From Rhodoferax sp. (GTDB lineage: Bacteria > Pseudomonadota > Gammaproteobacteria > Burkholderiales > Burkholderiaceae_C): DNA of 64,000 bases. This document shows positions 43,573-61,912 of the stretch, piece after piece. The position numbers were made by a program, and so were the translations under genes. The notes under the pieces are model-generated. The model saw only the letters and a list, made by a program, of their open reading frames with translations, made no database searches and was not told the DNA's origin. The DNA lies in NCBI RefSeq assembly GCF_028714215.1, contig NZ_JAQTMS010000017.1, positions 1 through 64,000 of the forward strand. Direction: 5' to 3'. How positions within the stretch are numbered: position 1 is the first letter of the stretch; every line of letters starts with the position of its first letter.

Positions 43573-43630
43573 ATGCTAAGAGCCATGGTGCGGTGAACCT
43601 TTGCTGGACTGCGCAATACCTTTGCCGGAC
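43573..43630 (-). promoter_or_regulatory. AraC-type activator site and promoter, copy A (C11 peptidase gene)
   Basis: Direct repeats ACCTTTGCTGGAC (43597-43609) and ACCTTTGCCGGAC (43618-43630) are 21 bp apart. On the minus strand the proximal repeat is followed at 18 bp by TAGCAT (43573-43578), a plausible -10; the -35 place falls within the repeat and is poor. The peptidase start codon is 38 bases further on. Activation by the REC-AraC protein encoded at 47,369 is inferred. Confidence 0.78.
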
Positions 43631-43721
43631 GGAAACATCTTTCTCCGATGAACTTCAGGTGAACCTGAAAGTGCCGAACGGGATTGCCTGAGCATGCTGT
43701 AAATAGGCTCATGCGGTCTGA

Positions 43722-44372
43722 CTATTTCTGCGGTCCTGCCTGCATCCGCACAATCGGCTCGCCACTGGCGTCCTTGGCGTCGCCACCGCGATACCCTGCG
43801 GGACGCTGCGGTGCATCGGACGGCAAGGTCAGCGCGATCGAGCGTGCCGCGTGTCTGCCGTGCTGAGCGGTAAAGACGTGCAGGTAGCTGTCGCCCGGAG
43901 GTGCCATCAGCTTGACAACGAGTTGCGACGGAACACCGGCCGTCAGCCGCCAGGTCGATTCGCCTCCCTGCGGTAGCAGGCGGGCGCCGTCACTGGTGCT
44001 CAACCGAACCGAGGCGTCGTCGCCGCTCACCCCCTCAAAGCGCAATACCAGGTCAAAGGGTTGACCGAGCACCGGACTGAATGGCCGCACATACAGCGCG
44101 ATTCCGGTTCGCAACTTGCCCGACACCGGCTCTGGTCCACCGAGCCAGACACCCGTGCGCTCGGGCTCTGCCAGCGGCGCCAGGGCGATCACGTCCTGGT
44201 TGCTGGGTAGACGCGCCTGGTTCGTGGCAGCCATGTCATTGCCTTGCTGACAGGCGACCAGCAAGACGCAGATTCCCCAACCCAACACCCGTGCTGACAA
44301 GGCACGCACCGCAGAGCCAGCCAACGGCCCTGGAACAGCGTGACGAAGCGATGTCAAGAAGCCTCCCGCCAC
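43722..44372 (-). CDS. Hypothetical lipoprotein (216 aa)
   Basis: I do not recognise this protein. It has a basic N-terminus, a hydrophobic segment and a lipobox-like LLVACQQG near residue 41, then a beta-rich domain (RTGIALYVRPFSPVLGQPFDLVLRF) that looks like an immunoglobulin-type sandwich. The start is a GTG at 44372 inside the last codons of the upstream metallopeptidase gene (19-base overlap), which implies translational coupling. It may be an accessory or inhibitor of that peptidase, but this rests only on the coupling. Confidence 0.65.
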   Translation of the reverse strand: MAGGFLTSLRHAVPGPLAGSAVRALSARVLGWGICVLLVACQQGNDMAATNQARLPSNQDVIALAPLAEPERTGVWLGGPEPVSGKLRTGIALYVRPFSPVLGQPFDLVLRFEGVSGDDASVRLSTSDGARLLPQGGESTWRLTAGVPSQLVVKLMAPPGDSYLHVFTAQHGRHAARSIALTLPSDAPQRPAGYRGGDAKDASGEPIVRMQAGPQK

Positions 44373-47212
44373 AGCTTCAGGTTGTTATTGCAGCGATTGC
44401 CCCGGAAGACGCTGTCCGGATCGACCACGAACTTGAGCGAGTACACGCGTCCCTGGGTCACTGCGATGAGTGAAGGGCTGTCCTTCATATTTTCATAGCC
44501 CAGGATGCTGACCTCTTGACCTGTTTCATCGCGCACGCTGAAATACCGCGGCTTGAACTCTTTGCCGCGGTCGTCGACCGGCTGTAGCCGCATATAGCCC
44601 GTGAAGGTGGATTTGAACGTGAAGCGCCGGCTCAGGCCCAAGGTATTTTCAAAAGCTTTGATTGGCTTTTCTTTCAGTGACGTGAAACGTGACATCCGGT
44701 GATTGAGACAAAACGAAGGGGAATTGGTGCTGACCAGCGTGGACGAGGCGCTTGGCCCACTGGCGGCGTCCAGCGCCACCGTCAGGTACAGCACCTCCAG
44801 ATCATTGGCGCCTATGCTGACGGTGGCGTTGATCGCCGGGTCAGGCGCCAAGCCCGCAGGCAAGGTGCCCAAGGGATCGGTGGAGCGAATGTTTTCAGTG
44901 CTCAAGAGATCCGAGAGCGATACAGTTGGATTTTGCTTTATGAACTGGTCCAGGAAGGCAAAGACCGTGGCCGAATGATGCACGTTCTTGAGGGCAGAGA
45001 CGGCCTTCCAGAACGCTGGGAAGCCGTAGTCATTGCCCATCTTGTACAGCATGTAACCAATCGACTCTTCCGAATAGAAACCCTTGCGAATGCCGGCAGC
45101 AGTTGCCTTTCTTAGGTCCGTCAGGCTGCCAGTGGCCTGAAGCGGACCCGAGGAATCGGTGTAGAAAGGGCTACCTGTCAACAGCCCGCCAACCGCCGTG
45201 CCATAGCCTTCGCCGTAGGACAGACTGGCGTCCTTGAATTCTTCTGCTGCATGGTTGTCACCCGGGCTGTCGGAGTAGGACAAAGCGAACTGTAGATAGT
45301 GACCGAATTCATGACCGATCACGCCCTGATCAAATTCGTCGGTATCGACATCGGCCATGCCAAGGATGAACAAGCCCGGGAAGGCCCCCTCACTGGCGAA
45401 CTTGGAAGTCGTGATTTCCCCTCTCTCAATCTTCTGGGCCTCGGTTTCTTCAGGCTTGACTTGAACAGGCGTTCGAATGACCGTTGTATTGGCCTTGCTC
45501 CAGTAGATGTTGAGGTCCGGCAGCTTGACGTTCGGGTCTGTGGTCTGCAGCTTGGTCACTGCGGTGTAGGCCACCTCGAGAATAGAAAACGGTGCGGACA
45601 GGCGATTGGAGCCATCAGCGGGAACCTGTCTTGCGTTGCCATCAAAGCCCAACGTGGCTTCGATATCTTTTGTGGTATTTCCGGCAATTGTGGTGAACGG
45701 GACTGAGTCCAGCAAATACATCCCCTTCGGACTGCCTTTGAAGGTGTTGTCGCGCACCGAGATGTTCCATTGAGCGCCGGTCGTGCTTCCAATGTCGCGC
45801 GTCTTGAGCAGTTGCGCCCTGACGCGCACGGCCACATTCTTGCCGGCCGGTGCGCCTGTGAACTGGTACTGTCCGTTGGCATCGGTGGATGTTGCCATCA
45901 GAACCGTGTCTTTGACATCAAGGTCCAGCAATTCGACGACAACCCCCTTGACCAGGAACGTCCTCAACTGGTCGTAACGCAGGGCGCCGTTGCCGACATT
46001 GATGCTGGGTGCAACGGCCCTTACCGTGCCGGACACGTTGGCTGGCCCCGTGCCAGCCTGCAGCAGAAAAGCCCTGGCCTGCAGGGCGGCACGCACTGCG
46101 CTCGCGTTGGCCACATCCTGAACCGTGATGGTGGTACGCGAGGCGACATCGCCATCGTCCATCACCAACAACTCGGCGCTGCCGGCGGCGCGCGCAGGAC
46201 AGTCGGCAGTGACCACTTCGTCTTCAGAGTGAACCTCAAAGTCCTGCGTTGGCCGCAGATCATGCAATTGGCACGACACACCGCCGAGCGTGACGTGAAG
46301 CCCGAAATGGAGGTTGCGGCCCACGATTTCAATGCTGGAGGTGACACCAGAAGGCACTGTGCTGCCAGGCACACCTGACTGTGTTGTTGATGGGTCCGCA
46401 TCAACGTACCAGACCGTCGTCGCCACGCCCTGGTGCTGCATGTTCTCAAAGACGTCGCGCAATACGTCCATGCCCGAGCCGGCGACCTGGTTCTGAAGCC
46501 GGTTGTTGTCTGTCAGCTTTTCCATGGCGCCTGTTACCGCGTCCCTGAGCTCCCCATCCTTGAAACGACCGCCGGCCGTCATCGCGGCAGTCAGGCTGTC
46601 CATCACCGCGGAAGCCTGGTTACCCGCCGAGCCGCCCTGTTGCAACTGCGACAGCGCGGCCAGGACTGCGCCGTAACGTCCTGCATCACTGTCTGCGAGC
46701 GGCTTGGCCGAGAGGTCGTCTGGAACTTGCCTGTCGATGTCAATGCCAGCCAGTCCAAAAGCCGAGGCTACCGCCATGGACAGCTTTTGGTAATTGGCGC
46801 CAGGGTCGCGCTCAGCCAGCACACGAAACGCCAACTCCGTCAGCGGCGTTACGACCGCCGTTTCATTGTTCTGCGCCAACTCGATGTAGGAGCGCAACGG
46901 GATGCCGATGGCAGTTGCGCCTGTGGCCTCGTCCGTGTAAGTGCCCCCGGCACAGGACAGCTGGGCCATGCCGGCGACGGCCGGTACATCCAGCGTCGCG
47001 GTACCTGCCTTGGTTTTCGCCGGACCCGCAATCGTTGTTCCGCTGGCGTCCAGCAGCACGCAAGAGCCGCCATCCACCGGTGCCAGGACGTAAAGTACGG
47101 TCAGTTGGTTCGTCGCTCTGTCCCCGGAACAAGCGGCCAGCAAGGCAAGCGCGCTGACCGTGAAGACCGCGGTTTTCAAGACACGCTTGAAGACGCTTGG
47201 CAATTCGATCAT
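44354..47212 (-). CDS. Large HExxH metallopeptidase lipoprotein
   Basis: The 952-residue protein has a lipoprotein signal (lipobox LLAACSG). The middle carries a beta-sandwich region and a carboxypeptidase-regulatory-like domain (STDANGQYQFTGAPAGKNVAV). The zinc site is VIGHEFGHYLQF, with HEFGH at residues 634-638; a Glu in SYGEGYGTAVGG about 35 residues on may be the third ligand. The family was not recognised by name. I chose the ATG at 47212 with GGAG upstream; another ATG 15 bases earlier lacks one. It is divergent from the response-regulator gene and is served by the site at 47,245-47,302. Confidence 0.72.
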   Translation of the reverse strand: MIELPSVFKRVLKTAVFTVSALALLAACSGDRATNQLTVLYVLAPVDGGSCVLLDASGTTIAGPAKTKAGTATLDVPAVAGMAQLSCAGGTYTDEATGATAIGIPLRSYIELAQNNETAVVTPLTELAFRVLAERDPGANYQKLSMAVASAFGLAGIDIDRQVPDDLSAKPLADSDAGRYGAVLAALSQLQQGGSAGNQASAVMDSLTAAMTAGGRFKDGELRDAVTGAMEKLTDNNRLQNQVAGSGMDVLRDVFENMQHQGVATTVWYVDADPSTTQSGVPGSTVPSGVTSSIEIVGRNLHFGLHVTLGGVSCQLHDLRPTQDFEVHSEDEVVTADCPARAAGSAELLVMDDGDVASRTTITVQDVANASAVRAALQARAFLLQAGTGPANVSGTVRAVAPSINVGNGALRYDQLRTFLVKGVVVELLDLDVKDTVLMATSTDANGQYQFTGAPAGKNVAVRVRAQLLKTRDIGSTTGAQWNISVRDNTFKGSPKGMYLLDSVPFTTIAGNTTKDIEATLGFDGNARQVPADGSNRLSAPFSILEVAYTAVTKLQTTDPNVKLPDLNIYWSKANTTVIRTPVQVKPEETEAQKIERGEITTSKFASEGAFPGLFILGMADVDTDEFDQGVIGHEFGHYLQFALSYSDSPGDNHAAEEFKDASLSYGEGYGTAVGGLLTGSPFYTDSSGPLQATGSLTDLRKATAAGIRKGFYSEESIGYMLYKMGNDYGFPAFWKAVSALKNVHHSATVFAFLDQFIKQNPTVSLSDLLSTENIRSTDPLGTLPAGLAPDPAINATVSIGANDLEVLYLTVALDAASGPSASSTLVSTNSPSFCLNHRMSRFTSLKEKPIKAFENTLGLSRRFTFKSTFTGYMRLQPVDDRGKEFKPRYFSVRDETGQEVSILGYENMKDSPSLIAVTQGRVYSLKFVVDPDSVFRGNRCNNNLKLWREAS

Positions 47213-47244
47213 TTGAGGCCACTCCATAAAGTCAAGGCGGGCCC

Positions 47245-47302
47245 ATTTTGAAGAACAATGTTCAACAAAACTTTGCTGGACTGCGCAATACCTTTGCTGG
47301 AC
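47245..47302 (-). promoter_or_regulatory. AraC-type activator site and promoter, copy B (metallopeptidase/regulator gap)
   Basis: AACTTTGCTGGAC (47269-47281) and ACCTTTGCTGGAC (47290-47302) are direct repeats 21 bp apart. On the minus strand, 18 bp beyond the proximal repeat, is CAAAAT (47245-47250), a possible -10. GAACAATGTTC (47252-47262), a perfect palindrome, lies between them. The site is in the gap between the metallopeptidase and the response-regulator gene, so the regulator may also control itself. Confidence 0.75.
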
Positions 47303-47368
47303 GGAAATATTTATTGGAACGGCAGGAACGGGGGTGGCAATCCCCACTGACGGTGAAACAATGGCGGC

Positions 47369-48160
47369 ATGATCAACATTGCTTCACCGCCTTCTCGATC
47401 CGCACGTATTCTGGTGGTGGATGATCGCGAGGAAGATCGGCATTTGCTCGCCGACTACCTGCGCCGCCAGGGCTATCGGCTTTACGTGGCGGAAGATGGG
47501 CGCGATGGCGTTGAGAAGGCCATCTACATCCAGCCCGATTTGATACTGATGGACGTGCACATGCCGGTTTGTGACGGCATTGCGGCGTGCCGTTTGCTCA
47601 AGGCAGAACCAAAGACGATGGCGATTCCCTTGATCTTTCTGACGGCCGCGGCCTTGCCCGAGGAGCGGGTGCAGGGCCTGCTCGAGGGCGCGGTGGACTA
47701 CATCACCAAACCGTTCAATTTTGACGAGGTTCGCTTGCGCATCTGCATTCAACTGAACGCCGCGCACGGCCACGAGCACCCTCCCGGCGGACGTGACGAA
47801 ACAGGCCCGAGCGGGTCCGTCGAAGCAGCGATATTTCTGGCTGCACAGCGGCGCATCCTGCAAGATCTTGCGTCTACGCCAGAGTTGGCAGTTTTGGCAC
47901 ACAGCGTCGGGACGAATACACGTCTGCTCAATGAGGCTTTTCGTAAATTCGTCGGCGTTACGGTGTTTGACTATCTGCGCGAGGCCCGCATGAAGGAGGC
48001 GCGTCACCTGTTGTCTGAAACCGACCTGGAAGTACAGACCGTCGCCAATGACCTGGGTTATGGCAACGCGGCCAACTTCTCGACGGCATTTCGCGAGCGT
48101 TTTGGCCTGTCACCGCGCCAGTATCGCAAGGCGACGCCCGGAGCCATGGAAGGCACATGA
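47369..48160 (+). CDS. Response regulator with receiver and AraC-type DNA-binding domains
   Basis: The 263-residue protein has a receiver domain (ILVVDDREEDRHLLADYL near residue 14, phospho-acceptor Asp62 in LILMDVHMP, KPFNFDEVRL near residue 111). A linker leads to an AraC-type double helix-turn-helix: LAVLAHSVGTNTRLLNEAFRK, then VANDLGYGNAANFSTAFRERFG and SPRQYR. AraC-type proteins bind direct repeats about 21 bp apart, the spacing seen at four sites in this region. Its stop overlaps the kinase start (ATGA). No strong ribosome-binding site is visible before ATG 47369. Confidence 0.92.
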   Translation: MINIASPPSRSARILVVDDREEDRHLLADYLRRQGYRLYVAEDGRDGVEKAIYIQPDLILMDVHMPVCDGIAACRLLKAEPKTMAIPLIFLTAAALPEERVQGLLEGAVDYITKPFNFDEVRLRICIQLNAAHGHEHPPGGRDETGPSGSVEAAIFLAAQRRILQDLASTPELAVLAHSVGTNTRLLNEAFRKFVGVTVFDYLREARMKEARHLLSETDLEVQTVANDLGYGNAANFSTAFRERFGLSPRQYRKATPGAMEGT

Positions 48161-50913
48161 TCACGGGCTTGCTGCGCCGCCTGCTCTGCCTTCTTCTTGG
48201 CCTGGGCGCGCTGGCCTGCACCCTGGTGCGGGCGCAGGGGCTCGATCTGGGGGTGCCAGACAGACAGGTCGCCGTATGGGGAGAATTGGCGATTCTGGAA
48301 GATCCGACTGCCCAACTATCCCCGGCCACGGCACTGGCACAACCCGGTTGGCAAGTAGCCACGCCGCGCCTGATGAGCAGGAGCACCAGCACTTCTGCAT
48401 TCTGGCTGCGATTGGTCGTCGTCAACCATGCACCTGAGAAGATCACGCGCTGGCTGAGCGTGGGTTCGCAGCAACTCGAAGATATCGGTTTTTACCGCCT
48501 GGCGCCGGACGCTGAACAGGTACAACTGTTCCTGCCGGGTGGCGCAGTGCATGCGCGCAAGGAGATGCCGCTGGCTGGCAGGACTTTTGTCTTTCCGGTC
48601 GCACTGGCCAGCGGCGAGGGGGCGATCTTGCTGCTGCGCATCCAGGGGCGCACGACCATGTCCATGGAGGTCGGACTGTGGGAACCTGCTGCTTTGCGGG
48701 AACAGGAAGCCCGCAAGGATTTGGCCCATTTGATTCCTCTATCTGCCTTGATGACGGTGGCACTTTATCTGTTGGTCCATTCGCTGGCACGAATGGACCG
48801 TCCTCTTCTGTTGTTGGCCGCCTGGTTGTTGCTGGCGGCGCTCCACGACCTGGCTTACGGTGGATATCTGAATCGTTATGTCTTGACCGGTGGCGGTGAA
48901 CCAAGCCTGCGGACTTCCGCGGTGCTGGCTAATCTGGCGCTCGCGGTGTGCACCGCGTTCATGTACGTTTTTCTCGAACTTTCACGCCTCAAATTCTGGC
49001 GCCACGTCTACTTGGGCCTACCGCTGGTCTTCCTGGCCATCGCGCTGGGCGCCGCGTTTGGCAATCTGCGGTTGTTTATTACGCTGACGAACAGTTTCCT
49101 GATGGCGTTCTTGCTGATCTGGCCCCTGTCCATGCTGTTGGCATGGCGTCGGCGCCTGCCCAACGTTGGAATATTTTTCATTTCCATTGCCGGCCAGTGG
49201 GTCATCCTGATCCTGCGCTTGTTGACGGTGCTGGGGATGGCGCCGATCATGGTGGACCACGACAGTCTGGCCATATCGATCCTGCTGGGATTCACCCTGG
49301 TTTTGCTGTACTTTGTGGTACGCCGCTCGATCGCTGAGCACAAGGCGAAAACAGATTCCCAGACCGCCATGTTGGAGTTCAATGCCCAGCAGCACGCCCG
49401 CCTCGAGGAGGCGGTGAATGCCCGCACCAACGCTTTGCAGGACGCGGTCATCGCGGCCGACGATGCCAACCGTGCCAAGAGCGACTTCCTGGCACGGATC
49501 AGCCATGATTTGCGCTCACCGCTGACGGCAATCATTGGCTATGCCGAAATGATCATCGCTGCCGGACGCACCGATGCCCAGAACGGACGGATCATCCGGC
49601 GCAGTGCCCAGCATCTGCTGGCCCTGCTCAACGACCTGATCGACTATGCACGCGGCAGCGCCCAACCCAACGCCTTGCTCGTATTGCCGCTCTATACGTC
49701 GACCTGGCTCGACAGTATCGCTGCCGACGCCAGGGCATTGGCCACCAAGCATGGAAACAGCTTCGACTTCAAGGTGTTTGGCAACCTTCCCCTGGTGATT
49801 GAGGTGGACGCCAAGCGCCTACGGCAGGTGCTGGAGAACCTGCTGACCAATGCTTCAAAATTCACCAACCACGGAAATATCGATTTCCATGTCACGGTGT
49901 CAACCGATGACACTGCGAATGACGCTAGTCTCCAGCATTTCCTCTTTACCGTGCGCGATAACGGTCCAGGCATTCCCGCGGAAGAACTGGTGCAGATCTT
50001 TGAACCGTTTCATCGTTTGAAGGGCGCCGAACACCACGAGGGGCTGGGCCTGGGCCTGGCCATTGCGCAGCAGTGGATCAAGCGCATGGGCGGTTCCATC
50101 GAAGCCTCCAGCGTGCTTGGCCAGGGCACAACCATGCAGGTGCGCATCGCGCTGCAGCAGTCCAGCGAGGACAGTTTGTCGCATCAAAACCAGATTCTCG
50201 ATGAAGGCTCTCCGCCCACCCTTGACGGACGCGACTGCCGAATCTGGATTGTGGAGGACAGCCACATTATCCGCAGCATGTTGTGCACTGAATTGGGCGG
50301 TCTGGGCTTTATCGTGGTGCCGATCAGCAATGGACAGGAGGCGTTGGTGCGCCTGAACCAGCCTGAAACCAAGGTGCCGGATTTGATACTGACCGACTTT
50401 CAAATGCCATTCGCCGATGGGAAAGCGGTGTTGAAGGCGGCGCGTGCAAAGTGGCCAGGGATACCGGTGGTGCTGTTGACCGCAACCCACGATTGGGCGA
50501 GCCACGGAGAAGATGGATTTTCCGAAATCTTGCCCAAGCCCGTCAGCCTCACTTTGCTGCGTCAGTCGGTGGCCCGTTTGCTGGGGCTTCAGACAAGTGG
50601 CCAGAGCACTGATGTTGACATCTTGCCGCCAGCGATGGTTTATCCGGACCCGCAATATCTTGACGAAGCGCTTCTGCTCATCCGGATGGGCGCCATCTCC
50701 GATCTGGTCGACTGGGCCAGCGCGCTGGCCGAGAAGCATGCGCAGTGGAGCAGCTTTGCAGATTGGGCCAAAGAGTTGGCGGATCGCGGGAATCTCAAAG
50801 AGCTGGCGGTGCTGTGTGAGTCAGCGCAAAGCAAACCTGCCGATGTGCCAAAGATGCCTCTTCATCCCGGTGGCGGTACAACCATCAACAGTGAAACAGG
50901 AACAGGACCATGA
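48157..50913 (+). CDS. 7TMR-DISM hybrid sensor histidine kinase
   Basis: The 918-residue protein has a signal peptide and a periplasmic 7TMR-DISMED2 domain (about residues 35-170, with FWLRLVVVNHAPEKITRWL). Seven membrane segments lie at about residues 185-395. A coiled linker follows, then a HisKA box FLARISHDLRSPLTAIIGY with His450, HATPase motifs NLLTNASKF, VRDNGPGIP and GLGLGLAIA, and a receiver with Asp747 in ILTDFQMP. A helical tail of about 100 residues resembles a phosphotransfer region but has no clear His motif. DISMED2 domains are thought to sense small extracellular ligands, often carbohydrate-like. It is coupled to the REC-AraC gene. Confidence 0.9.
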   Translation: MITGLLRRLLCLLLGLGALACTLVRAQGLDLGVPDRQVAVWGELAILEDPTAQLSPATALAQPGWQVATPRLMSRSTSTSAFWLRLVVVNHAPEKITRWLSVGSQQLEDIGFYRLAPDAEQVQLFLPGGAVHARKEMPLAGRTFVFPVALASGEGAILLLRIQGRTTMSMEVGLWEPAALREQEARKDLAHLIPLSALMTVALYLLVHSLARMDRPLLLLAAWLLLAALHDLAYGGYLNRYVLTGGGEPSLRTSAVLANLALAVCTAFMYVFLELSRLKFWRHVYLGLPLVFLAIALGAAFGNLRLFITLTNSFLMAFLLIWPLSMLLAWRRRLPNVGIFFISIAGQWVILILRLLTVLGMAPIMVDHDSLAISILLGFTLVLLYFVVRRSIAEHKAKTDSQTAMLEFNAQQHARLEEAVNARTNALQDAVIAADDANRAKSDFLARISHDLRSPLTAIIGYAEMIIAAGRTDAQNGRIIRRSAQHLLALLNDLIDYARGSAQPNALLVLPLYTSTWLDSIAADARALATKHGNSFDFKVFGNLPLVIEVDAKRLRQVLENLLTNASKFTNHGNIDFHVTVSTDDTANDASLQHFLFTVRDNGPGIPAEELVQIFEPFHRLKGAEHHEGLGLGLAIAQQWIKRMGGSIEASSVLGQGTTMQVRIALQQSSEDSLSHQNQILDEGSPPTLDGRDCRIWIVEDSHIIRSMLCTELGGLGFIVVPISNGQEALVRLNQPETKVPDLILTDFQMPFADGKAVLKAARAKWPGIPVVLLTATHDWASHGEDGFSEILPKPVSLTLLRQSVARLLGLQTSGQSTDVDILPPAMVYPDPQYLDEALLLIRMGAISDLVDWASALAEKHAQWSSFADWAKELADRGNLKELAVLCESAQSKPADVPKMPLHPGGGTTINSETGTGP

Positions 50914-51617
50914 ACAAAACATCAATTCTTTTACTCAAGACAAGCCTTGCCGGCATTGCATTCGCAGCCGCATCTGCTTTTGCTCAAACCTATGACAGCC
51001 AGAACGCGCTGGACGACGAGATCAGGAAAACCGCTGATGAACTGAGTTTTCTTGAGTTTGAGAGTGCGTCAAGCTGGGGCCAGACCAGCAGGTGCCAGCT
51101 CAAGTACCGGGTCGCCAATACGGAGAATCCGTACCAAGCCGGAGATGCGCAACTTGTGCAGGGTTCGATTACCAGCGACTACTACAAAGACAAGCCGATC
51201 AACTTCATTTTGAACGTGCAGCCCCTGCGACTCGATGTAAATCGGGCCAGTCGCCAGGCCGGGTCCAGGACCCTTCATCCAATGCGTGCCGCTCTTATGG
51301 TCAATGGGCTGGACCTGAGCAAGTATCAACTGGATGCGAACACCTGTGATGGAAGCAGCTGCTTTGTTTACGCGCCGACCAAGGGCGAAGAAATCGTCGA
51401 CCTGATGAAGGCGGTGCAATCGAAGTCGATCCTGGATGCCGAAATAGTGTTTTCGTTGGACAAAGTCTTACCGGAAAGAACGATCAGAATTTCCAATCTC
51501 ACAACCCATGGAATCACCAACAGCGAAGTCAGAAAACAGTTCACGACTTGCCTCGCCGAACTGGTGAAGAAAGAAGTCGCTGATATACAAAAGTCTGACG
51601 CGGCCCAAAAGAAGTAG
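50910..51617 (+). CDS. Exported hypothetical protein coupled to the hybrid kinase
   Basis: This 235-residue protein has a signal peptide (cleavage after ASAFA). The mature part starts QTYDSQNALDDEIRKTADELSFLEFESAS. It contains three cysteines (two in CDGSSC near residue 147) and ends in a lysine-rich tail. I recognise no family. Its ATG overlaps the kinase stop (ATGA), so it is made with the two-component system. A periplasmic accessory that modulates the kinase's sensor domain is a reasonable guess, but unproven. Confidence 0.7.
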   Translation: MNKTSILLLKTSLAGIAFAAASAFAQTYDSQNALDDEIRKTADELSFLEFESASSWGQTSRCQLKYRVANTENPYQAGDAQLVQGSITSDYYKDKPINFILNVQPLRLDVNRASRQAGSRTLHPMRAALMVNGLDLSKYQLDANTCDGSSCFVYAPTKGEEIVDLMKAVQSKSILDAEIVFSLDKVLPERTIRISNLTTHGITNSEVRKQFTTCLAELVKKEVADIQKSDAAQKK

Positions 51618-51659
51618 GCTGCGGCAACACAGCGGGCTTGTGCCCCTGGGCTCCGACCG

Positions 51660-52190
51660 TCACACGTCGCGGTTCAGTGTCACATGCCATGCAAAGCACT
51701 TCGCCAGCCGGGCCGGGATGCCTTTGACGTTACTGGAAACCCACTGCGCAATTTCTGTGGTCTCGAAAACCATGGCCGCGCCACCCCATACGTTGACGGG
51801 ATGCGCTGCTGCGAGTGGATCGCCTGAATAGAAAAAGTACCCATTGTCGGAAACATGGGTGCCCACGTAGATGATGCTCCAACCGGCTTCGCTGAAGGAT
51901 TGATAGATATCGACCTTCTTCAGCTTTTGTTGCCTTGCAATGGCCTGCCCCAGTTGCAGCTTTCGGGCAGCACTCAGACTGCGATTGACGCCATCGCATG
52001 GACTCAACCGCACCCATGCAAGGGCTTCGTCGTACTGTTGCCTGGAGATCGCCTTGTCCGCCAGCGCTTCTGTGAGAACCTGAAGGGCTTGCGCTTTTGA
52101 TTTCTCCGACAATGGCGGCTCGGTTGCACTCTGATCGGCCCGGGCGCAAAGCGCAAGAAGCGCGAGAGTGAAAAGCAGCAGGTGTCGCAT
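51660..52190 (-). CDS. Exported hypothetical protein
   Basis: I do not recognise this 176-residue protein. It has a short signal peptide (cleavage after LCARA) and a helical first half (QALQVLTEALADKAISRQQYDEAL). A globular second half has DIYQSFSEAGWSIIYVGTHVSDNGYFFYSG and a WGGAAMVFETTEIAQWV segment. GGGGG before the ATG at 52190 favours that start; an ATG 15 bases upstream overlaps the previous stop as ATGA. It is the last gene of a five-gene minus-strand operon and converges with the exported protein after the kinase. Confidence 0.65.
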   Translation of the reverse strand: MRHLLLFTLALLALCARADQSATEPPLSEKSKAQALQVLTEALADKAISRQQYDEALAWVRLSPCDGVNRSLSAARKLQLGQAIARQQKLKKVDIYQSFSEAGWSIIYVGTHVSDNGYFFYSGDPLAAAHPVNVWGGAAMVFETTEIAQWVSSNVKGIPARLAKCFAWHVTLNRDV

Positions 52191-52201
52191 GGATAACCCC
52201 C

Positions 52202-52762
52202 TCATTTGAGATCGTCCACGGGTGCCTTTCTTACCAGCACGGGCGACTTGATCGCATCGAAGTCGAATTCATCCCGAAGTGAATAGAAGTCCGTTCCTTC
52301 ATCGGTTCCAGAAAACAAATCCGTGATCTTTTTCCCATTACCAAAGACGACCAGGCTTACGCCGCTGCCCTGACCCAGCGCATCGGAAACGTAGTAATGG
52401 AAGCTGCCTTGATTGAAACTTATGATGTTTTCACCCGTGTGCGGAGTGGTGCTTCGAGTGAAGATGGCCATCTTGGAGACGGTCGATGCGGACTGGTCAA
52501 ACTCTACATTGCCAGGCGCGCCATAGCGGTAAGTCATTTGCGTGATCGTTGGCCCCTGCGGGTTGATGCATATCGAAAGCACCTTGCCGGTCGAGCTGTA
52601 CGTGATGCCGACTTTCGATGTGTGAACCTTCTGCATCTTTGCCGTGATGAACGTTCTCTCGGCCGCTGTGCAGTGGGTCGGGACTGTGGTCTGGGCGCCA
52701 GAGTATCCGCAGCAGAGCAATGAGCTTGCGACCATTGCGGCTCCAAATTTAATCGGCGGCAT
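52202..52762 (-). CDS. Exported hypothetical protein
   Basis: This 186-residue protein has a signal peptide (SLLCCGYSGAQ) and a beta-rich mature part: KVGITYSSTGKVLSICINPQG, then YRYGAPGNVEFD and HTGENIISFNQGSFHYYVSD. No family is recognised. The end (DFDAIKSPVLVRKAPVDDL) is charged. The ATG at 52762 is preceded by GGA at seven bases. It lies between the DUF4239 gene (31-base gap) and the last gene (start overlap) of the operon that begins with the patatin gene. Confidence 0.65.
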   Translation of the reverse strand: MPPIKFGAAMVASSLLCCGYSGAQTTVPTHCTAAERTFITAKMQKVHTSKVGITYSSTGKVLSICINPQGPTITQMTYRYGAPGNVEFDQSASTVSKMAIFTRSTTPHTGENIISFNQGSFHYYVSDALGQGSGVSLVVFGNGKKITDLFSGTDEGTDFYSLRDEFDFDAIKSPVLVRKAPVDDLK

Positions 52763-52793
52763 TGTGCAATCCTTCAATCCGGCGCCAGACGGC

Positions 52794-53594
52794 TTACCTG
52801 GCTGCAACCATCTGCTCAATCACCCTGCGAAGGGGTTCGCTTGAGATGCTGGTCTCTCCCCTGAAAGGCTGATCCAGAATCATGATCAACCCGACGACCA
52901 TGCCCAAGGCTCCGAAATAGGCTCCAAGGACACCCGCGCGTCGCCCATCCAGTTTGGTGCGTCCCACCAGGACGCTGCCCAGCAACATCAGAACGGCGAT
53001 ATAGAGCCAGAATACCCGTGGCGACGAAGCCGTGGCCAGCTGGTATCTCAGGAGCCGGGAATTCTCCAGTTTGCTCAAGGACGTCAGGATCTTGTCCGAG
53101 TAGGACGACATTCCGGATTCCTGCACATTCTTTTGCACTGAATTGCGCAACTCGACGACAGCTTTCTCGACCTCGACAGACAGCATGGGATTGGCTTGCG
53201 CCAACGAACTCCATTCGTCCGCAACCACGGCTTTGGCGTATCTTTCCAACTGCTTCTTCTGATGCTGGGTGAAGACGCTCGGCTGCAAATCCAAGAGAAA
53301 GATGTACTGTCGCAACTCAAGAGATTCATTGATGACACTGTCCTGAGCTTTGCTGAAATTGGCGCGCACGTCACCCAGCGTAATCGCCAGCAAGAAGACC
53401 AGAAAGGCAAATATGCTTTTTTCAACGGTTTCAAAGAGCACATCGGAATCCATGTTCTTGCTGCCGAACAAGAACCGGTTTGAAAGAGCTGAAATCGAAA
53501 TTCCAGCGACGGCAAAAAACGCAAGGAATTCGGCCATGATGGTGATATCGGAATTCGACGCAATATGCCTCAATACCAGATCTGAAAGATTCAT
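52794..53594 (-). CDS. DUF4239-like membrane protein
   Basis: The 266-residue protein has paired hydrophobic segments at the N-terminus (ITIMAEFLAFFAVAGISISAL and IFAFLVFLLAITLGDVRANF). A soluble helical region of about 110 residues follows, then two further membrane segments (VFWLYIAVLMLLGSVLVG and VLGAYFGALGMVVGLIMIL). The final DQPFRGETSISSEPLR is typical of DUF4239 proteins, which have a bestrophin-like topology and no proven function. I prefer the ATG at 53594 to a TTG 12 bases upstream. It lies in the patatin operon, 30 bases after the solute-binding gene. Confidence 0.8.
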   Translation of the reverse strand: MNLSDLVLRHIASNSDITIMAEFLAFFAVAGISISALSNRFLFGSKNMDSDVLFETVEKSIFAFLVFLLAITLGDVRANFSKAQDSVINESLELRQYIFLLDLQPSVFTQHQKKQLERYAKAVVADEWSSLAQANPMLSVEVEKAVVELRNSVQKNVQESGMSSYSDKILTSLSKLENSRLLRYQLATASSPRVFWLYIAVLMLLGSVLVGRTKLDGRRAGVLGAYFGALGMVVGLIMILDQPFRGETSISSEPLRRVIEQMVAAR

Positions 53595-53624
53595 ATGGAT
53601 CTTCAATAAGTCAAAATCGCCGTC

Positions 53625-54992: not shown

Positions 54993-56473
54993 TGCGCGGG
55001 ACCCTTCGACGCCGGGCGGTCCGCCAGGAACTCCAGGATCGTCTGCCGGTTCTGCATGACCACCTTCGCCGCGGCGGTGTGTAACAAGTGCCGATCGCAC
55101 TCGGACTCCATCACGAACTTGGTCGGAATCATGGCAAGGCGCTGTTGTACGTCCTCTGGCGAGGACAAAGGGGGATCCTCATGGCGACAGGCTTCCGGCA
55201 GATCGCTGAGATCCTCGTCCCACTGCGCGCTCTCGTGGTTCAGGAACAGGATGCGCAGGCTGGCGTCATCGGGAAACACACCTTCGATCTGGAGGCTACG
55301 GTAGAAGAGAGACCAATAAGCCGTTGCCCGTTCCTCCATCACCTTGGGGATGCGGGAAAAGTCGTAGTTGAAGAGGGTCCAGGGTTGGCTGCGCTGTTTG
55401 AGCTGCTTGAAACCGACCGAGAAGGGGTAGGAACTGTTGAAGGCGAGGATCAGGGCGCGGCGCACCTTGTGGTCCTGCATCTGCTTCTGAAATGTGAACA
55501 ACAGCGACTCCAGACCGAGGTTTTCGTAGAGTCCGCCATCCCCCGTATGCCAGTAGTCCAGTTCGTCGCCCACCGTGAACGTGATCGGTCCCACCAGGGG
55601 CGGGAACGAGGCGGACGCCGTCACCGCTACCGCCACCTTCAGGGGGCAAGGGTCGATCTGCAGTTCGAGCGGAGACACCGGCAGCAGCGACTCCCAGCGT
55701 TTCTTCATCACCTCCGGGTAGGTGCGCGTGATCCCCCTGCTGATCAGCGACCGGTCCAGATCAGCAATGAAGTCGTATTGCGCTGCATCGGGTGTGAGCG
55801 TGGTGAACATGAACCGCCGACCATTGTTGTAGAGCGTGCTGTTGATAAGCAACGTGGGGCTATCCCCGCTCTGTTGTCGCGCCGCCAGATCTGCAAAGGT
55901 GCCGGGGCCCAGCAGGCTCTCTTCAAGAATTTCGTGCAACGATTGCGCTGCCAGGGCCGAGTTCAGGATAAACCGGCCTGCACCGAGTTGACGCCAGATC
56001 AGTGCGCTCTGGAAGTCCTGGGCCAGTTTGGTCTGGAAATCGGTGAAAAAGGTCTGGTAGGCCTGCGTCATTGTCCCGTCCGCGGCGAGCATCGGCGTCT
56101 CGTGCGCAGGCTTGTGCAACGCATAGTAGGCCGCCGCCAGGCCGCCTCCGGAGACACTGGAGAGGTACGAGACCTGCTCCAGTACCGACGACCCACCCTG
56201 CGGAGATTTCAGCCGGCCCAGGGCCTCCAGTCCGGCTGCAGCGTAGAGAGCCGCTCGACTCCCGCCGCCAGACAGGGCGACCCCCACAACGGTGTCCTGC
56301 TGCACCGCCGGTGTGATGCAAGTCGTCTCCGAGCCCACTTTGGGCAGACGTGTTATCTCAGGCGAGGCGCACGCCGTCACGATCAGCGCGCAGGCAGTCC
56401 ACAGCGCCGCTGGGAGCCAGCAGAACCGACACCTGTCGTCCATGGATTGTTTTACGGTTTGACCTCGCCACAT
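54989..56473 (-). CDS. Patatin-like phospholipase lipoprotein
   Basis: The 494-residue protein has a lipoprotein signal (lipobox IVTACAS near residue 35). The patatin motifs are present: VALSGGGSRAALYAA (oxyanion loop, near residues 66-80), YLSSVSGGGLAAAYY with the probable nucleophile Ser108, and WHTGDGGLYENLG with the catalytic Asp in DGG. It should hydrolyse phospholipids or other acyl esters at the envelope. AGGA lies six bases before the ATG at 56473. It opens the operon patatin-UgpB-like-DUF4239-two exported unknowns. No AraC-type repeat was found upstream. Confidence 0.85.
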   Translation of the reverse strand: MWRGQTVKQSMDDRCRFCWLPAALWTACALIVTACASPEITRLPKVGSETTCITPAVQQDTVVGVALSGGGSRAALYAAAGLEALGRLKSPQGGSSVLEQVSYLSSVSGGGLAAAYYALHKPAHETPMLAADGTMTQAYQTFFTDFQTKLAQDFQSALIWRQLGAGRFILNSALAAQSLHEILEESLLGPGTFADLAARQQSGDSPTLLINSTLYNNGRRFMFTTLTPDAAQYDFIADLDRSLISRGITRTYPEVMKKRWESLLPVSPLELQIDPCPLKVAVAVTASASFPPLVGPITFTVGDELDYWHTGDGGLYENLGLESLLFTFQKQMQDHKVRRALILAFNSSYPFSVGFKQLKQRSQPWTLFNYDFSRIPKVMEERATAYWSLFYRSLQIEGVFPDDASLRILFLNHESAQWDEDLSDLPEACRHEDPPLSSPEDVQQRLAMIPTKFVMESECDRHLLHTAAAKVVMQNRQTILEFLADRPASKGPAQ

Positions 56474-56518
56474 GTCATTCCTGCCACCATGCGCATCGCA
56501 TCGGTTCTCTCAATGCAT

Positions 56519-57601
56519 TCACAAGCCCTGGAATCTAAAGGGTTTTGTTTCCACGAACTTGTCAGCGGTGTTGCCTGAGTAGGTTTGGTTGTTTGAAATG
56601 CTGAGCTTCTTGACTTTGCCTGTCCTGGAAAAGTCGATGTCTTTGAACTCTACCCAGAACGTGTTTGGAGTGAGTGCCGATTCGAAAAAGTAGATCTTGT
56701 TCTTGTGGTCAGCGACTGTGCGCCATCTTGTGGATGAGATGTTTGGCTGTCCCGGTGTGCTAATGCCGAACGGCACCGAAGCGTTGCGGATGACGCTGAA
56801 TACGCTGGCGACTGCCACGCGCGTGTCTTCGGTCTGCGGTATGGCGTTGATGTAAAACGAGGCTCTTACGAACCTGTCGGCGGCACGGTTTGTGCCCGGA
56901 AGCATGACGGTTCCGCCAATTTGTTTCCAGTATTCATTCAGTGCCAGTTGCTTTTCGAAGATGGGCGAGTTTGTCATCACCTGATAGGACCTGTTGTGGT
57001 GGATGACGAGTTTGCCGCCGAGGTATTCAAAGATGGCGTTGTCACCCGTCGCGTCGGAGATTGCCAGGTGAAGCGTTGCGAGCGATGTTCGGCCCGGCGT
57101 GTTACCCGTGACGATGGCAAATTCTCCCTTGCTCAAGCCCTTGACTGCTTCGTCTACCGTAGCGTATGAATCGAGCACGTATTGCACCCATGCCGAGATG
57201 GTGAGGCCAGCCCTTTTCTGATCCCATACCCCGTATTCTGATTCGGCGAGCCAGAGCAGGTTTGCGACCAGCCCTTTTTCATTCATTCCGTCAGTGCTTG
57301 CACTGTCGTATCCCGTGGCGATGACGCTGCCGAATTTTGAAGTCCACTTCAGCGAGTTGGGTCCGACTTCGCCGTTACGTCCCATGCCTGAGGGGAATAT
57401 CCAGAGGTTGGTACCCATATCTTCATTCCAGTCCATGGAACGGGCGGTGATGATGGTGCCGTTGGGTCCCTGATAGACCACGCGTGTGCATGCGTCCACC
57501 GTGTTGACGCCTAGCGCTGCTGCTGCAACAAGCAACAAGGGCGAAAGCAAAGTTCTTAGTCTCATGATGAGCGTGACTCTGGTATTGGGCAAGCTGGACA
57601 T
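56519..57601 (-). CDS. Exported N-terminal-nucleophile amidohydrolase (choloylglycine hydrolase family)
   Basis: The 360-residue protein has a signal peptide ending VDA just before Cys38. Cleavage would expose that Cys as the catalytic nucleophile, as in linear amide C-N hydrolases. The mature start CTRVVYQGPNGTIITARSMDW fits the family, as do the later GMNEKGLVANLLWL (near residue 110) and DATGDNAIFEY. Substrates in the family include bile-salt amides, penicillin V and acyl-homoserine lactones. AGGAGG before the ATG decides the start. It is the target of the site at 57,649-57,706. Confidence 0.86.
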   Translation of the reverse strand: MSSLPNTRVTLIMRLRTLLSPLLLVAAAALGVNTVDACTRVVYQGPNGTIITARSMDWNEDMGTNLWIFPSGMGRNGEVGPNSLKWTSKFGSVIATGYDSASTDGMNEKGLVANLLWLAESEYGVWDQKRAGLTISAWVQYVLDSYATVDEAVKGLSKGEFAIVTGNTPGRTSLATLHLAISDATGDNAIFEYLGGKLVIHHNRSYQVMTNSPIFEKQLALNEYWKQIGGTVMLPGTNRAADRFVRASFYINAIPQTEDTRVAVASVFSVIRNASVPFGISTPGQPNISSTRWRTVADHKNKIYFFESALTPNTFWVEFKDIDFSRTGKVKKLSISNNQTYSGNTADKFVETKPFRFQGL

Positions 57602-57648
57602 GGCAACCTCCTTCTGATGGTGGGTGGGGATTCGTACCGGCTTCGAAG

Positions 57649-57706
57649 ATGCTAAGAGCATTGGCGCGGGAAACCTTTGGCAGCCGACGCAATACCTTTG
57701 CCCGAC
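57649..57706 (-). promoter_or_regulatory. AraC-type activator site and promoter, copy C (amidohydrolase gene)
   Basis: Repeats ACCTTTGGCAGCC (57673-57685) and ACCTTTGCCCGAC (57694-57706) are 21 bp apart. On the minus strand TAGCAT (57649-57654) lies exactly 18 bp after the proximal repeat and 47 bases before the amidohydrolase ATG. GATGCTAAGAGCAT around the -10 is shared with copy A. Confidence 0.78.
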
Positions 57707-57795
57707 GGATATTTCTCTGCCGTGGCCCAGGGTGTGACAGAACCAGTAATCTTCCCGTCCTGCAAAGGTTTTTCGCCGTCAGGCAAAGGTTTGGC
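57701..57795. repeat. Duplicated operator segment, left copy
   Basis: These 95 bases match 60855-60950 at about nine positions in ten, with one single-base indel near 57733. The shared block includes GATATTTCTCTGCCGTGGCC and the right-pointing operator pair. The two copies are direct repeats, about 3.15 kb apart, flanking the metallopeptidase gene. Confidence 0.85.
57757..57790 (+). promoter_or_regulatory. Orphan plus-strand operator pair at copy C
   Basis: GTCCTGCAAAGGT (57757-57769) and GTCAGGCAAAGGT (57778-57790) keep the 21-bp period and point right. The hexamer at the 18-bp position (57809-57814, GCCGCA) is not a -10, and no plus-strand gene follows. The pair looks vestigial. Confidence 0.65.
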
Positions 57796-57829
57796 ACACC
57801 ATCGTCACGCCGCATGCACGGCATCACCT

Positions 57830-60400
57830 CTATTGAGCCAGGAAACCTTTCTTAAGGATACTCAGGCCTTCCAGGTACCACTGGTAAGCGGAATTGCCGA
57901 CATTTTGATTTGCAAAACCATCTGCAACGACTGGCGAGTCGAAGATGCCACCGCTTGCCGCGACCGATTGATTCAGTAGCGTTGTGAGGGATCCCTTGAG
58001 GGTCTCGGTTTCCCGCATCCCCCACCAGAGGGCTGAACCGACCGACCTGCTGTTCATCAGGCGCGAGGCATCCAGCCGCAGTGACCAGTCATAGCTGAAC
58101 AGTGGCAAAGTCAGCGCGGCCTTGTTGACTGTGGCGCTTAGAGTCGTTCCCGTCGTGGCCTCGACGTATGTCTTGCTGGTTGAGTTCATGGCAGCCAGCA
58201 GCGCGTTCCCGGCCGGGCCATCCACCAAATCGATTTTGCTGGTGACCGATGACAACAGTCTGATGTCTTCTGTCGCCAGCGCGGGAATCAGTTTGCTGAA
58301 GAAGTCGGCCGCCATGGTCCGCAGTTGTGCACGTTCTTCAGCGGTAAAGGTTCTGCTGTTGCCGTCCTGGTCAACGATCGTATAGAAGGCCGGGTCTTCT
58401 GTGAGCGTGTTGAAACGCTTGATCCAGGCATCCTTCCAGGCCGGATCGACAGTCCTGAACATCCCGGTCAATGATGTGATCCCCAAGGGGTTGGACTGGA
58501 TCCATGCATCGAGATCTGACCGCACGACGGGCATGACCGCTGCACGCAGCTCGGTGGGGTCGGCATCCTTGAGCTGGGTACCGGGATAGAAACTCTTGAG
58601 CGTGCGCGCATAAAACCCGGTCTGGGTGAAGGGTGTCAGCAGCAAGGGTTTGTTTTTCAGCAAACTTTTTGCCATCTGGAGCGGCGACGGGTGCAGATCG
58701 GCGACGCTGCCTGCGTTCGCCATCAACTCTGCCACCTGGTCAAGGTAGAACATGACGGGCAGAATGTCGGCCCTCAGTTTGTATTCAATTTCCGAGGACG
58801 CGAATTCCAGAGGTGAGCGGCCGCGATCAAAGCGCAGGCAGTCCTGCATGCTGCCATCTGCGTCCGTATCGGTGCAAAAGGGGATGCTCTTGTCCAGAGT
58901 CTTCTCCTGGTAGAGAAACTTCATGGCGCTCACATCGTGCGGGAGGGTCAGCTTTGTCGTATTGAAGCGCTCGGCGATCAGAACCTCTTCGATCGAATCG
59001 TGGTAGTCCATCACGCTGCTCGACGGAAGCACACCGGTATCGTAAGGCTGGTTGTTCAGAAAATTGGCATACAGATCCTCGTGCTTCTTGCCGTTGTAAA
59101 CGGCGGCCAGACTGCCGGCAAAGTTGTGGCGCAGACCCATGGTGTGCCCGACCTCATGAGCCACAACCTGCTGCACTGTCGCTTGGGCGGACTTCAATAT
59201 CGCCGCATCGCTGGCGTTGTTTGCCAGCAGTGCGGTCATCCGGTTCACCATCCCCTCTTTCACCGACAAGTCGCATAGCCGGGGCGTGTGGAGGTTTTTC
59301 AGCGCAATCTGTGTGCTCGATGATGCTGGTGCTGACAGAAGCTTGAGCGCTCTCCAAGCGTCTTTTCTGTTACCGACCCCGAAACTGCTTGGCATGAAAA
59401 CCTGGGCATGCAGGATCTGGCCGGTTCTCGGATCGGCCTGCATGTCGGCGTAGGCTGATCCGGCCGTGTCATACGTCAGCCATTGGATGATGTTGCGGTC
59501 CATGTCCGGAGCCGTAGCACCCACCGGAGCGTCGGCCACGGCGAATACATCCTGCTCCAGGACCTGGTTCCAGTACAGGACACCATTCCTGACGGCATCA
59601 CGGTACTCCGGGGGGGTTTCAGCGGAGATGAAGTAGGTGATCGGTTCCTTGTTCATTTGCCACTTCATGGCCAACACCTTGGTCTTGGCACCACCCGCTA
59701 CATCCTGCGGCATGACTTCGAAATAGCCGGCATTCGTGAAGCCGGGAGACACAGTCTGTTGGAAGGAAGGGTCCGGCAGATAGGGGGAGAGGTAATAGCG
59801 GACCTCGACACTCTGAACCGTGTTGTTGCTGGTGTCGACCTGGGCCGACTGGCGCAGCGACAGACGATTATTCTTGCTGTCATCCACCTGTTCCAGGTAA
59901 CTGCTCCGGATCGAAGCGACCTGGAAGGAAGGCATGTACGCACTGCCTTCGTAGTCGGACGCATACATCTCTGCAGTCGTGAATATCTTGGACATGCCCT
60001 GATTGAAATCGAACCAGATCCAGCCGCCGTCCTCATTGGTAATCGGAAATTCGGCCAGAATAATGGCAAAGGGGGTATCCGGTGTCACGGTATGCCCGAC
60101 TTGGGATTCCAGCATGAAGAGCTTGCCGGCCTGCTTTTGAAAGACGACAACCCTGCTCTTGAGTCCACTGAAGTTCTGGGCGTCTGTAAGTTGGATCAAG
60201 TTCCCCTGCAACAGGAACTCATGGTTCAGGGCATCAGACCTGATTGCCACATTCTTGCTGACATCCGTTCTGAATGAGGCGTTGAGCAAGGGAGCTGCAG
60301 GTGAAGCGCCACCGCCACCGCAGCCGCCGAGAACCAGCATGAACAACAGGGTGACGGATACAACGACCAGTTTGAATCGATCGGTTTTTACTTCAATCAC
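57830..60400 (-). CDS. Large metzincin-type zinc metallopeptidase lipoprotein (DUF5117-like)
   Basis: The 856-residue protein has a lipoprotein signal (lipobox LVLGGCGG). The zinc motif is VVAHEVGHTMGLRHNFAG, with HEVGHTMGLRH at residues 415-425, and a Met-turn SSVMDYHD follows about 45 residues later, as in metzincins. The layout matches the DUF5117/DUF4953-type peptidases of proteobacteria and Bacteroidetes. The start is a GTG at 60400, seven bases after GGAAGGAG; no ATG has a comparable site. It lies between two copies of a duplicated operator segment, yet no intact operator points to it. Confidence 0.86.
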   Translation of the reverse strand: MIEVKTDRFKLVVVSVTLLFMLVLGGCGGGGASPAAPLLNASFRTDVSKNVAIRSDALNHEFLLQGNLIQLTDAQNFSGLKSRVVVFQKQAGKLFMLESQVGHTVTPDTPFAIILAEFPITNEDGGWIWFDFNQGMSKIFTTAEMYASDYEGSAYMPSFQVASIRSSYLEQVDDSKNNRLSLRQSAQVDTSNNTVQSVEVRYYLSPYLPDPSFQQTVSPGFTNAGYFEVMPQDVAGGAKTKVLAMKWQMNKEPITYFISAETPPEYRDAVRNGVLYWNQVLEQDVFAVADAPVGATAPDMDRNIIQWLTYDTAGSAYADMQADPRTGQILHAQVFMPSSFGVGNRKDAWRALKLLSAPASSSTQIALKNLHTPRLCDLSVKEGMVNRMTALLANNASDAAILKSAQATVQQVVAHEVGHTMGLRHNFAGSLAAVYNGKKHEDLYANFLNNQPYDTGVLPSSSVMDYHDSIEEVLIAERFNTTKLTLPHDVSAMKFLYQEKTLDKSIPFCTDTDADGSMQDCLRFDRGRSPLEFASSEIEYKLRADILPVMFYLDQVAELMANAGSVADLHPSPLQMAKSLLKNKPLLLTPFTQTGFYARTLKSFYPGTQLKDADPTELRAAVMPVVRSDLDAWIQSNPLGITSLTGMFRTVDPAWKDAWIKRFNTLTEDPAFYTIVDQDGNSRTFTAEERAQLRTMAADFFSKLIPALATEDIRLLSSVTSKIDLVDGPAGNALLAAMNSTSKTYVEATTGTTLSATVNKAALTLPLFSYDWSLRLDASRLMNSRSVGSALWWGMRETETLKGSLTTLLNQSVAASGGIFDSPVVADGFANQNVGNSAYQWYLEGLSILKKGFLAQ

Positions 60401-60470
60401 AGCAATACTCCTTCCGGTTAACCAGTGTGGCCGGCCAACTGAAAGGGTGGCCTTGCTCTGCTTGGGCCTG

Positions 60471-60551
60471 TCAGACCAGTATTCCGACTTCCTCCTGGAC
60501 TTTGCCGGCGGCATCTTTGACAACGCCGTGAACTTGATTCTTGTTGATCAT
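60471..60551 (-). pseudogene. Truncated CsbD-like stress protein gene
   Basis: A frame of 26 codons starts at ATG 60551 after GGAG and reads MINKNQVHGVVKDAAGKVQE, then EVGILV and TGA. This is the start of a CsbD-like protein, which is normally about 60-70 residues. After the TGA the same frame continues with QAQAEQG, like the expected next CsbD residues, so a Gly codon (GGA) may have mutated to TGA. I regard it as a broken gene, though a functional micropeptide cannot be excluded. Confidence 0.6.
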
Positions 60552-60854
60552 GGCTACTCCTTAAGTTGATGGAGGCTGATCACGCCCTATGAAACAGTGT
60601 TGCCTCAATTTGATCCATGGCCAAGAATTGCATCTTGAGAAAACGCAAGGACACAGACTACCGACGCTCGAACTCGCCGATGGCAGCCGCGCCCACACCA
60701 TCGAGTGGCCAGTTCACCGTGATTGCGCTGCTGCCTCTTTGAATCTTCACCCGTATGTCGGCGTTGGACCTGGCGTGCTTTGGTCATGATCGACCAGACC
60801 CTTCTATCGCCCCATGAAGAGCGGGTGCGACTTTGTGCGGAGTTGGTCCCTTCG

Positions 60855-60950
60855 CCCGACCGATATTTCTCTGCCGTGGCCCAGGGCTGCGACAGATCCA
60901 GTAATTTTTCCGTCCAGCAAAGGTTTTTGGCAGTCAGGCAAAGGTTTGGC
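60855..60950. repeat. Duplicated operator segment, right copy
   Basis: This 96-base block is the partner of 57701-57795. Its left-pointing repeats are degraded: the remaining half-sites read about CTTTGTGCGGA and CCCTTCGCCCGAC at a spacing that no longer fits 21 bp. Its right-pointing pair is intact and leads to a working-looking promoter. Confidence 0.85.
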
Positions 60951-60969
60951 GGGCCAGCGCGCCTATCAT
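60912..60969 (+). promoter_or_regulatory. AraC-type activator site and promoter, copy D (outer-membrane barrel gene)
   Basis: GTCCAGCAAAGGT (60912-60924) and GTCAGGCAAAGGT (60933-60945) are 21 bp apart. TATCAT (60964-60969) follows exactly 18 bp after the proximal repeat, as at copies A and C. The barrel gene's ATG is at 61058. Orientation relative to the gene is the same as at the other copies. Confidence 0.78.
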
Positions 60970-61900: not shown

Positions 61901-61912
61901 CCCGGTGTGACA

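Follow-up and report, generated by a model that had tools for sequence, protein, structure and literature searches.

The question raised by this locus is whether a 21-bp direct repeat that recurs in front of genes for exported hydrolases is the operator of a single regulon and, if so, which protein reads it. In the window, by which we mean the whole stretch of 64,000 nucleotides analysed, a preliminary description had placed four such tandem sites, each with a period of exactly 21 bp and a proximal repeat exactly 18 bp from a -10-like hexamer. All four are present at the positions given there, the period is exact at each, and the 18-bp gap is exact to TAGCAT, CAAAAT, TAGCAT and TATCAT for operators 1-4, respectively. 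The total is nevertheless five, as operator 5 had been overlooked (Table 1). This additional site faces the met-zincin gene from the side of its 3′ end and probably represents an orphaned copy of the one that faces OMP.

Table 1. Operator sites, regulatory genes and target genes in the window
Feature	Position	Strand	Remarks
Operator 1, two half-sites, period 21	43597-43630	-	A-rich block 43631-43642; -10 TAGCAT 43573-43578
Operator 2, between HExxH gene and regulator gene	47269-47302	-	weak -10 CAAAAT 47245-47250
Operator 3, CBAH-facing	57673-57706	-	proximal half-site with 2 mismatches; -10 TAGCAT 57649-57654
Operator 4, OMP-facing	60912-60945	+	-10 TATCAT 60964-60969
Operator 5	57757-57790	+	half-sites match pattern exactly; GCCGCA at the -10 position, no -10
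CBAH-facing half-site remnant	60848-60860	-	3 mismatches; not site-like by weight matrix
REC-AraC response regulator, proposed activator	47369-48160	+	PF00072; PF12833, E 3.8e-24
Hybrid histidine kinase with 7TMR-DISM sensor, proposed partner	48157-50913	+	overlaps regulator gene by 4 bp
C11 (clostripain-type) lipoprotein, operator 1 target	41499-43535	-	start revised from 43712
PAP2 phosphatase	40569-41417	-	82 bp behind C11 gene; orthologues in three relatives follow their own site
HExxH lipoprotein, operator 2 target	44354-47227	-	start revised from 47347; gene 43722-44372 overlaps its end
CBAH-family Ntn hydrolase, operator 3 target	56519-57601	-	start revised from 57661
DUF4953 met-zincin lipoprotein	57830-60523	-	no intact site upstream in the window
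Outer-membrane beta-barrel protein (OMP), operator 4 target	61058-61900	+	start revised from 60968
Alpha-type carbonic anhydrase	61907-62665	+	6 bp behind OMP gene

The pattern is not scattered over the genome. At up to three mismatches, a scan of the 5.16-Mb assembly (116 contigs) returned tandems only at the five sites of the window, between 43.6 and 60.9 kb and hence all within 17.4 kb around the regulator gene, and the reversed pattern returned none. Exact copies of GTCNNGCAAAGGT-N8-GTCNNGCAAAGGT occur three times in the window versus zero times in 100 dinucleotide shuffles, and when exact pairs were collected from eight genomes at any spacer between 0 and 30 bp, all five had the 8-bp spacer. 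Three of the 11 exact half-sites in the own genome lie outside tandems (reversed control, two), and three genomes without sites contain 0, 2 and 2 exact half-sites. Elsewhere in the window, positions 51570-51641 on the forward strand give a weak weight-matrix match that is well above background and is possibly a decayed site. We did not count it as a further operator: it falls at the coding end of the gene at 50910-51617, and the sequence model described below is silent there at E values up to 5.

The repeat is part of a longer module shared between species. When the 36 pattern matches obtained from seven genomes at up to three mismatches were oriented and aligned, the order read from the alignment was an A-rich AAAAATATATCC, GTCCRGCAAAGGT, 8 bp, GTCCRGCAAAGGT, 18 bp and the -10. 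Two elements outside the search pattern are conserved: (i) AAAAATATATCC immediately 5′ of the first half-site, where column -8 is A in 35 and column -5 is T in 34 of the 36 sequences, and (ii) a TAGNAT hexamer occupying columns 52-57 (T 27, A 32, G 29, A 32 and T 33 of 36). Beyond columns -12 to 57 conservation drops to background. We also note a GCGCCAGCGC-like block in the promoter spacer, conserved at columns 39-48 (G in 31, C in 30 and A in 31 of 36 at three positions).

A sequence-only model of 73 columns was built from 35 of the 36 matches; the one left out (G478:C907:1340, L129) has three mismatches and neither an A-rich block nor a -10. Searched against 89 congeneric genomes, the model returned 44 matches of at least 32 bits in seven genomes, with the next listed match at 18.4 bits; stricter filters were used for this search, and some weak matches were lost. 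TANNAT is found at column 52 in 29 of the 44 matches, whereas the 21 other offsets tested (44 to 65) gave no case of it. Nine of the 44 are new relative to the model, although both the A-rich block and the -10 fall within its columns. Six of the 44 sites (L097, L098, L103, L120, L133 and L239) have CAGAAT in place of TAGCAT, and their known targets are M49-like, TpsB, pentapeptide, S8 and papain proteins. This second promoter type could represent a different strength or a sub-regulon.

How might such a module work? The reading that we favor, and consider probable, is that the exported hydrolases form a two-component regulon activated by the REC-AraC protein, which would bind the 21-bp direct repeat across the -35 region. 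A 17-bp spacer counted from the -10 puts the -35 position where the proximal half-site ends, and the hexamer there, AAGGTT, is unlike TTGACA. Taken together with the AraC-type domain and the period of 21 bp, this hexamer suggests an activator layout over the -35. AraC and XylS are activators that contact polymerase from this location. From gene order and domain content, the 7TMR-DISM hybrid kinase would pass phosphate to the receiver of REC-AraC, in which the phospho-acceptor Asp lies in LMDVHMP; it counts against this scheme that an Hpt phosphotransfer partner was not found by Pfam in the kinase. Two REC-AraC subunits, each with an AraC-type double HTH domain, would occupy the two GTCCRGCAAAGGT half-sites about two helical turns apart, with the proximal subunit covering the -35 region, and the bound protein would hold RNA polymerase at a promoter that has a usable -10 (TAGCAT type) and no -35. 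The A-rich block would fall at about -69 to -77 if transcription starts some 6-7 bp after the -10, and perhaps assists polymerase there, possibly by contacting the alpha-CTD.

The preliminary description had named the product of the gene at 47369 as the likely regulator, and most of the comparative evidence agrees. REC-AraC orthologues of at least 76% identity occur in four of 89 genomes (G000, G466, G472 and, in two copies, G475), and all four carry sites, 5 to 13 each, as opposed to three of the 85 genomes in which no orthologue is present (Fisher p = 1.4e-5). For this search up to 29 candidates were scored per genome, and all candidates were scored for the seven site genomes and for G457. 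The next-best homologues, the first of them truncated and from G457, have 54, 41, 41 and 38% identity, and their genomes are without a site. Carriers are related to one another, and when the comparison was restricted to 11 genomes with DbpA identities of at least 90%, sites were found in four of four with the regulator versus one of seven without it (p = 0.015); 17 of the 89 genomes had no DbpA match at the cut-off, G469 among them, and G478 had a partial match at 85%. Kinship of the carriers remains a partial confounder of the co-occurrence.

A positional relationship involves the regulator gene itself. At all five copies the distal edge of a site lies 66-67 bp 5′ of the start codon (66 bp in the window; the fifth distance was read off the printed sequence). 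The site stays constant while the divergent gene varies, being PAP2 in three relatives, the HExxH lipoprotein here and TauE at the second G475 copy, where the site faces the TauE gene and is without a -10. In G466, 475 bp separate the -10 from the PAP2 start. Immediately 5′ of the start codon, all five copies have a GGTGAAACAATGG-like block (47335-47370 in the window), which perhaps serves the regulator gene as a promoter of its own or as a leader, and the regulator may control its own expression from the adjacent site. The kinase orthologue follows the regulator in four of five copies, with none near the second G475 copy. The second recognition-helix region reads [NS]AANFSTAFRERFG in the five carriers and is different in 11 aligned non-carrier homologues. 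Gene order near the regulator is otherwise rearranged between species.

A difficulty for this assignment is that three site genomes, G476 (five sites), G478 (one) and G469 (one), have no regulator orthologue detectable at 1e-12 and no kinase at 1e-60, as would be expected if the operator were read by another regulator encoded elsewhere and the REC-AraC gene were merely a neighbor or a target. These three assemblies are incomplete, however (82, 75 and 84%, respectively), and a different reader would leave unaccounted for the presence of a site before every regulator copy, including the G475 duplicate, and of sites in every genome with an orthologue, as well as the fit of a 21-bp direct repeat over the -35 to an AraC-type domain. 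We therefore regard another regulator as unlikely. The assignment to REC-AraC has strong correlative support from the genome comparisons and is not proven.

If REC-AraC is the reader, it might instead act mainly as a repressor that keeps the genes for exported enzymes shut until a stimulus reaches the kinase, since a protein positioned over the -35 region is able to block polymerase. We find this very unlikely. A promoter with AAGGTT at -35, far from TTGACA, should be weak unaided, and the fixed distance to the -10, together with the conserved A-rich block upstream, fits activation as generally known for AraC/XylS activators.

What, then, is controlled? The proposal of a regulon is borne out across species, where the same module precedes orthologues of window genes and genes for further exported proteins. 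In the window, the earlier listed ORF starts overlap operators or -10 hexamers, and clean signal peptides begin at 43535, 47227, 57601 and 61058. The genes for PAP2 and C11 are possibly in one operon, judging from their spacing, and the carbonic anhydrase gene is probably co-transcribed with the OMP gene. Downstream of CBAH, closely packed on the same strand, are genes for a patatin, a solute-binding protein and a bestrophin-like protein and two more genes. Just past the window, G000:C17:64035-64427 (L200:2036-2428) has a 70% match to the C-terminal half of PAP2 (residues 152-282) and looks like a partial second PAP2 copy.

Orthologues with the module in relatives include CBAH (83, 86 and 76% identity, the last over part of the length), met-zincin (75-86% in five copies from four relatives), OMP (70 and 84%), PAP2 (81-82%), the HExxH protein (56%), the product of 52202-52819 (69%) and a C11 peptidase (38%). 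Further peptidase targets in relatives are S8 subtilases (L188 and L195 by Pfam, and L232 from the resemblance of its start), a papain (L239), a C39-like protein (L231) and an M49-like protein below the cut-off (L182). Other targets are an autotransporter (L174), a TpsB transporter (L171), a pentapeptide lipoprotein (L173) and beta-barrels (L168 and L236), and to these are added a phosphoesterase lipoprotein (L238) and a beta-lactamase-family protein (L234). An MFS gene, a TauE gene and a zinc-ribbon ORF beside L193 are exceptions, and ORF calling gave no clear ORF at sites L172, L192 and L233.

The bias toward export is evident from a crude signal rule, which was positive for 22 of 27 targets versus six of 32 control ORFs, where two of the 22 positives (MFS and TauE) are membrane transporters and three of the coordinates used do not end at a stop codon. 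The targets were chosen mostly as one per orthologue group, excluding sites without a clear ORF, and the controls were mechanical ORFs from positions 1-38800 of the window. By eye, the five negatives look exported as well: L182 is lipobox-like, L178, L235 and L234 are twin-arginine-like and L187 is signal-like. For L177, L178, L189 and the product of 52202-52819, no Pfam family was found, and membership in the regulon is the first clue to their role.

The paired sites near CBAH, and those near OMP, can be compared with G476, in which a single intergenic region carrying two divergent sites (L191) lies between the OMP and CBAH genes. Segments 57.65-57.80 and 60.85-60.98 kb of the window align to L191 and to each other, from which we infer that an ancestral OMP/CBAH bidirectional promoter was duplicated and that the met-zincin gene now lies between the copies. 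In each copy one of the two sites has decayed: at 57757 the site directed at OMP no longer has a -10, and at 60848 a remnant is left of the site directed at CBAH. Upstream of met-zincin in the window there is no intact site (best weight-matrix score -44.9). This split promoter and the exchange of partners beside the regulator (PAP2 or HExxH) raise the tentative, and rather doubtful, idea that the 70-bp operator-promoter is a portable module, such that unrelated exported hydrolases could join or leave one secretome regulon by gain, duplication or swap. These hydrolases comprise five kinds of peptidase by Pfam, plus the HExxH lipoprotein and a weak M49 match. That the same 70 bp is a small mobile promoter-carrying repeat (a MITE, for example), spread by copying and served by no dedicated regulator, would account for the one clear local duplication in the window and for a few non-orthologous pairs with a common flank (e.g. 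L098 with L232 and L103 with L120), but is highly improbable given that flanks of non-orthologous sites score on average no differently from the null (14.0-16.0 vs 15.2), that core likeness is highest between orthologous sites (0.784 vs 0.701 and 0.686) and that sharing ends, apart from those pairs, at the limits of the functional core.

The distribution of the operator is narrow. At up to two mismatches, the tandem occurs in one of 399 family genomes, the own one, and in none of the 394 that lie outside the genus (five of the 399 belong to it). Within the genus, the 36 matches at up to three mismatches come from seven of 89 genomes, and the reversed control gave five single matches in five other genomes. 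By the model, the sites number 13 in G466, 12 in G475, seven in G472, five each in G000 and G476 and one each in G478 and G469. In relatives G466, G472 and G475 they are dispersed over many contigs, as opposed to 17.4 kb in the window's genome. Most carriers found in the genus are metagenome assemblies.

The operator-regulator pair seems special to one species group, because four family genomes outside the genus with regulator homologues of 49-65% identity have no tandem at up to two mismatches. In the 450 bp upstream of the distant regulators L009, L010 and L197-L199, we found no direct repeat of at least 11/13; this is a weak negative, as the scan recovered the known site in only two of five true carriers (the window and L183) and upstream sequence was lacking for L196. 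Upstream of the other-genus homologues L241-L245, matches at 10/13 are scattered over many periods, a few of them at 21 bp (L243 and L245), and L241 has one 11/13 repeat at period 24. On firmer ground, the genomes of L241-L245 contain no tandem at up to two mismatches, and those of L009 and L010 none at up to three. An imperfect 21-bp repeat at L245:1340-1375 (copies beginning GTCGAG and GTCTAG, 8-bp spacer), 5′ of an other-genus homologue, might be a diverged operator; at 10/13 it is near background.

The REC-AraC family itself extends across the Betaproteobacteria, with Thauera, Ralstonia, Pandoraea and Herbaspirillum represented in the 120 matches listed out of 353, and none of its best 25 NCBIfam matches reaches the cut-off. 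Since the family is so widespread and without such a match, one defined operator would help to show what it reads and controls. The locus also offers a testable set of regulator, operator and regulon for exported proteases and other hydrolases against a very clean genomic background. Our literature searches, mostly at title level, found no published account of this operator, of the regulon or of the role of this regulator; a text search with four versions of the half-site and a stretch of the A-rich block gave, among the matches listed, mostly cell-biology titles and one on Azotobacter AlgU.

Three groups of known systems bear on the proposal. AraC and XylS bind two half-sites in tandem, at a period of about 21 bp, of which the proximal one covers the -35, and activators of this type sense a small ligand via another N-terminal domain, whereas the N-terminus of the regulator described here is a receiver. 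HrpX is likewise an AraC-type protein and is not known to have a receiver domain. Features shared with activators of the AraC/XylS type are a direct repeat of ~21 bp, a proximal copy over the -35, a fixed distance to the -10 and a double HTH. For RhaS, the overlap with the -35 at PrhaBAD is 4 bp (PMC9429829). The HrpX regulon of Xanthomonas resembles ours in having a direct repeat, TTCGB-N15/N8-TTCGB, bound by HrpX in front of secreted-protein genes (PMC7831014). Our half-site is instead GTCCRGCAAAGGT, TTCGB-N15-TTCGB does not describe it, and no type III secretion families appear among the Pfam results of the scanned targets.

A third parallel is with the hybrid two-component systems (HTCS) of Bacteroides. 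These have predicted direct-repeat motifs of two 16-bp sites with a 5-bp spacer, and further motifs of 12 bp with 9 (period 21) and 14 bp with 6 (period 20), and their regulons consist of exported degradative enzymes (PMC3878776). To that extent, both systems combine a receiver and an AraC-type output with a direct repeat of period 20-21. HTCS are single proteins, whereas the kinase and regulator here are the products of two genes and do not form one polypeptide. HTCS also belong to the Bacteroidetes and to polysaccharide use, whereas the present host is betaproteobacterial and its target genes encode mainly peptidases and other hydrolases. The layout, a REC-AraC output on a direct repeat of period 20-21, is of a known kind.
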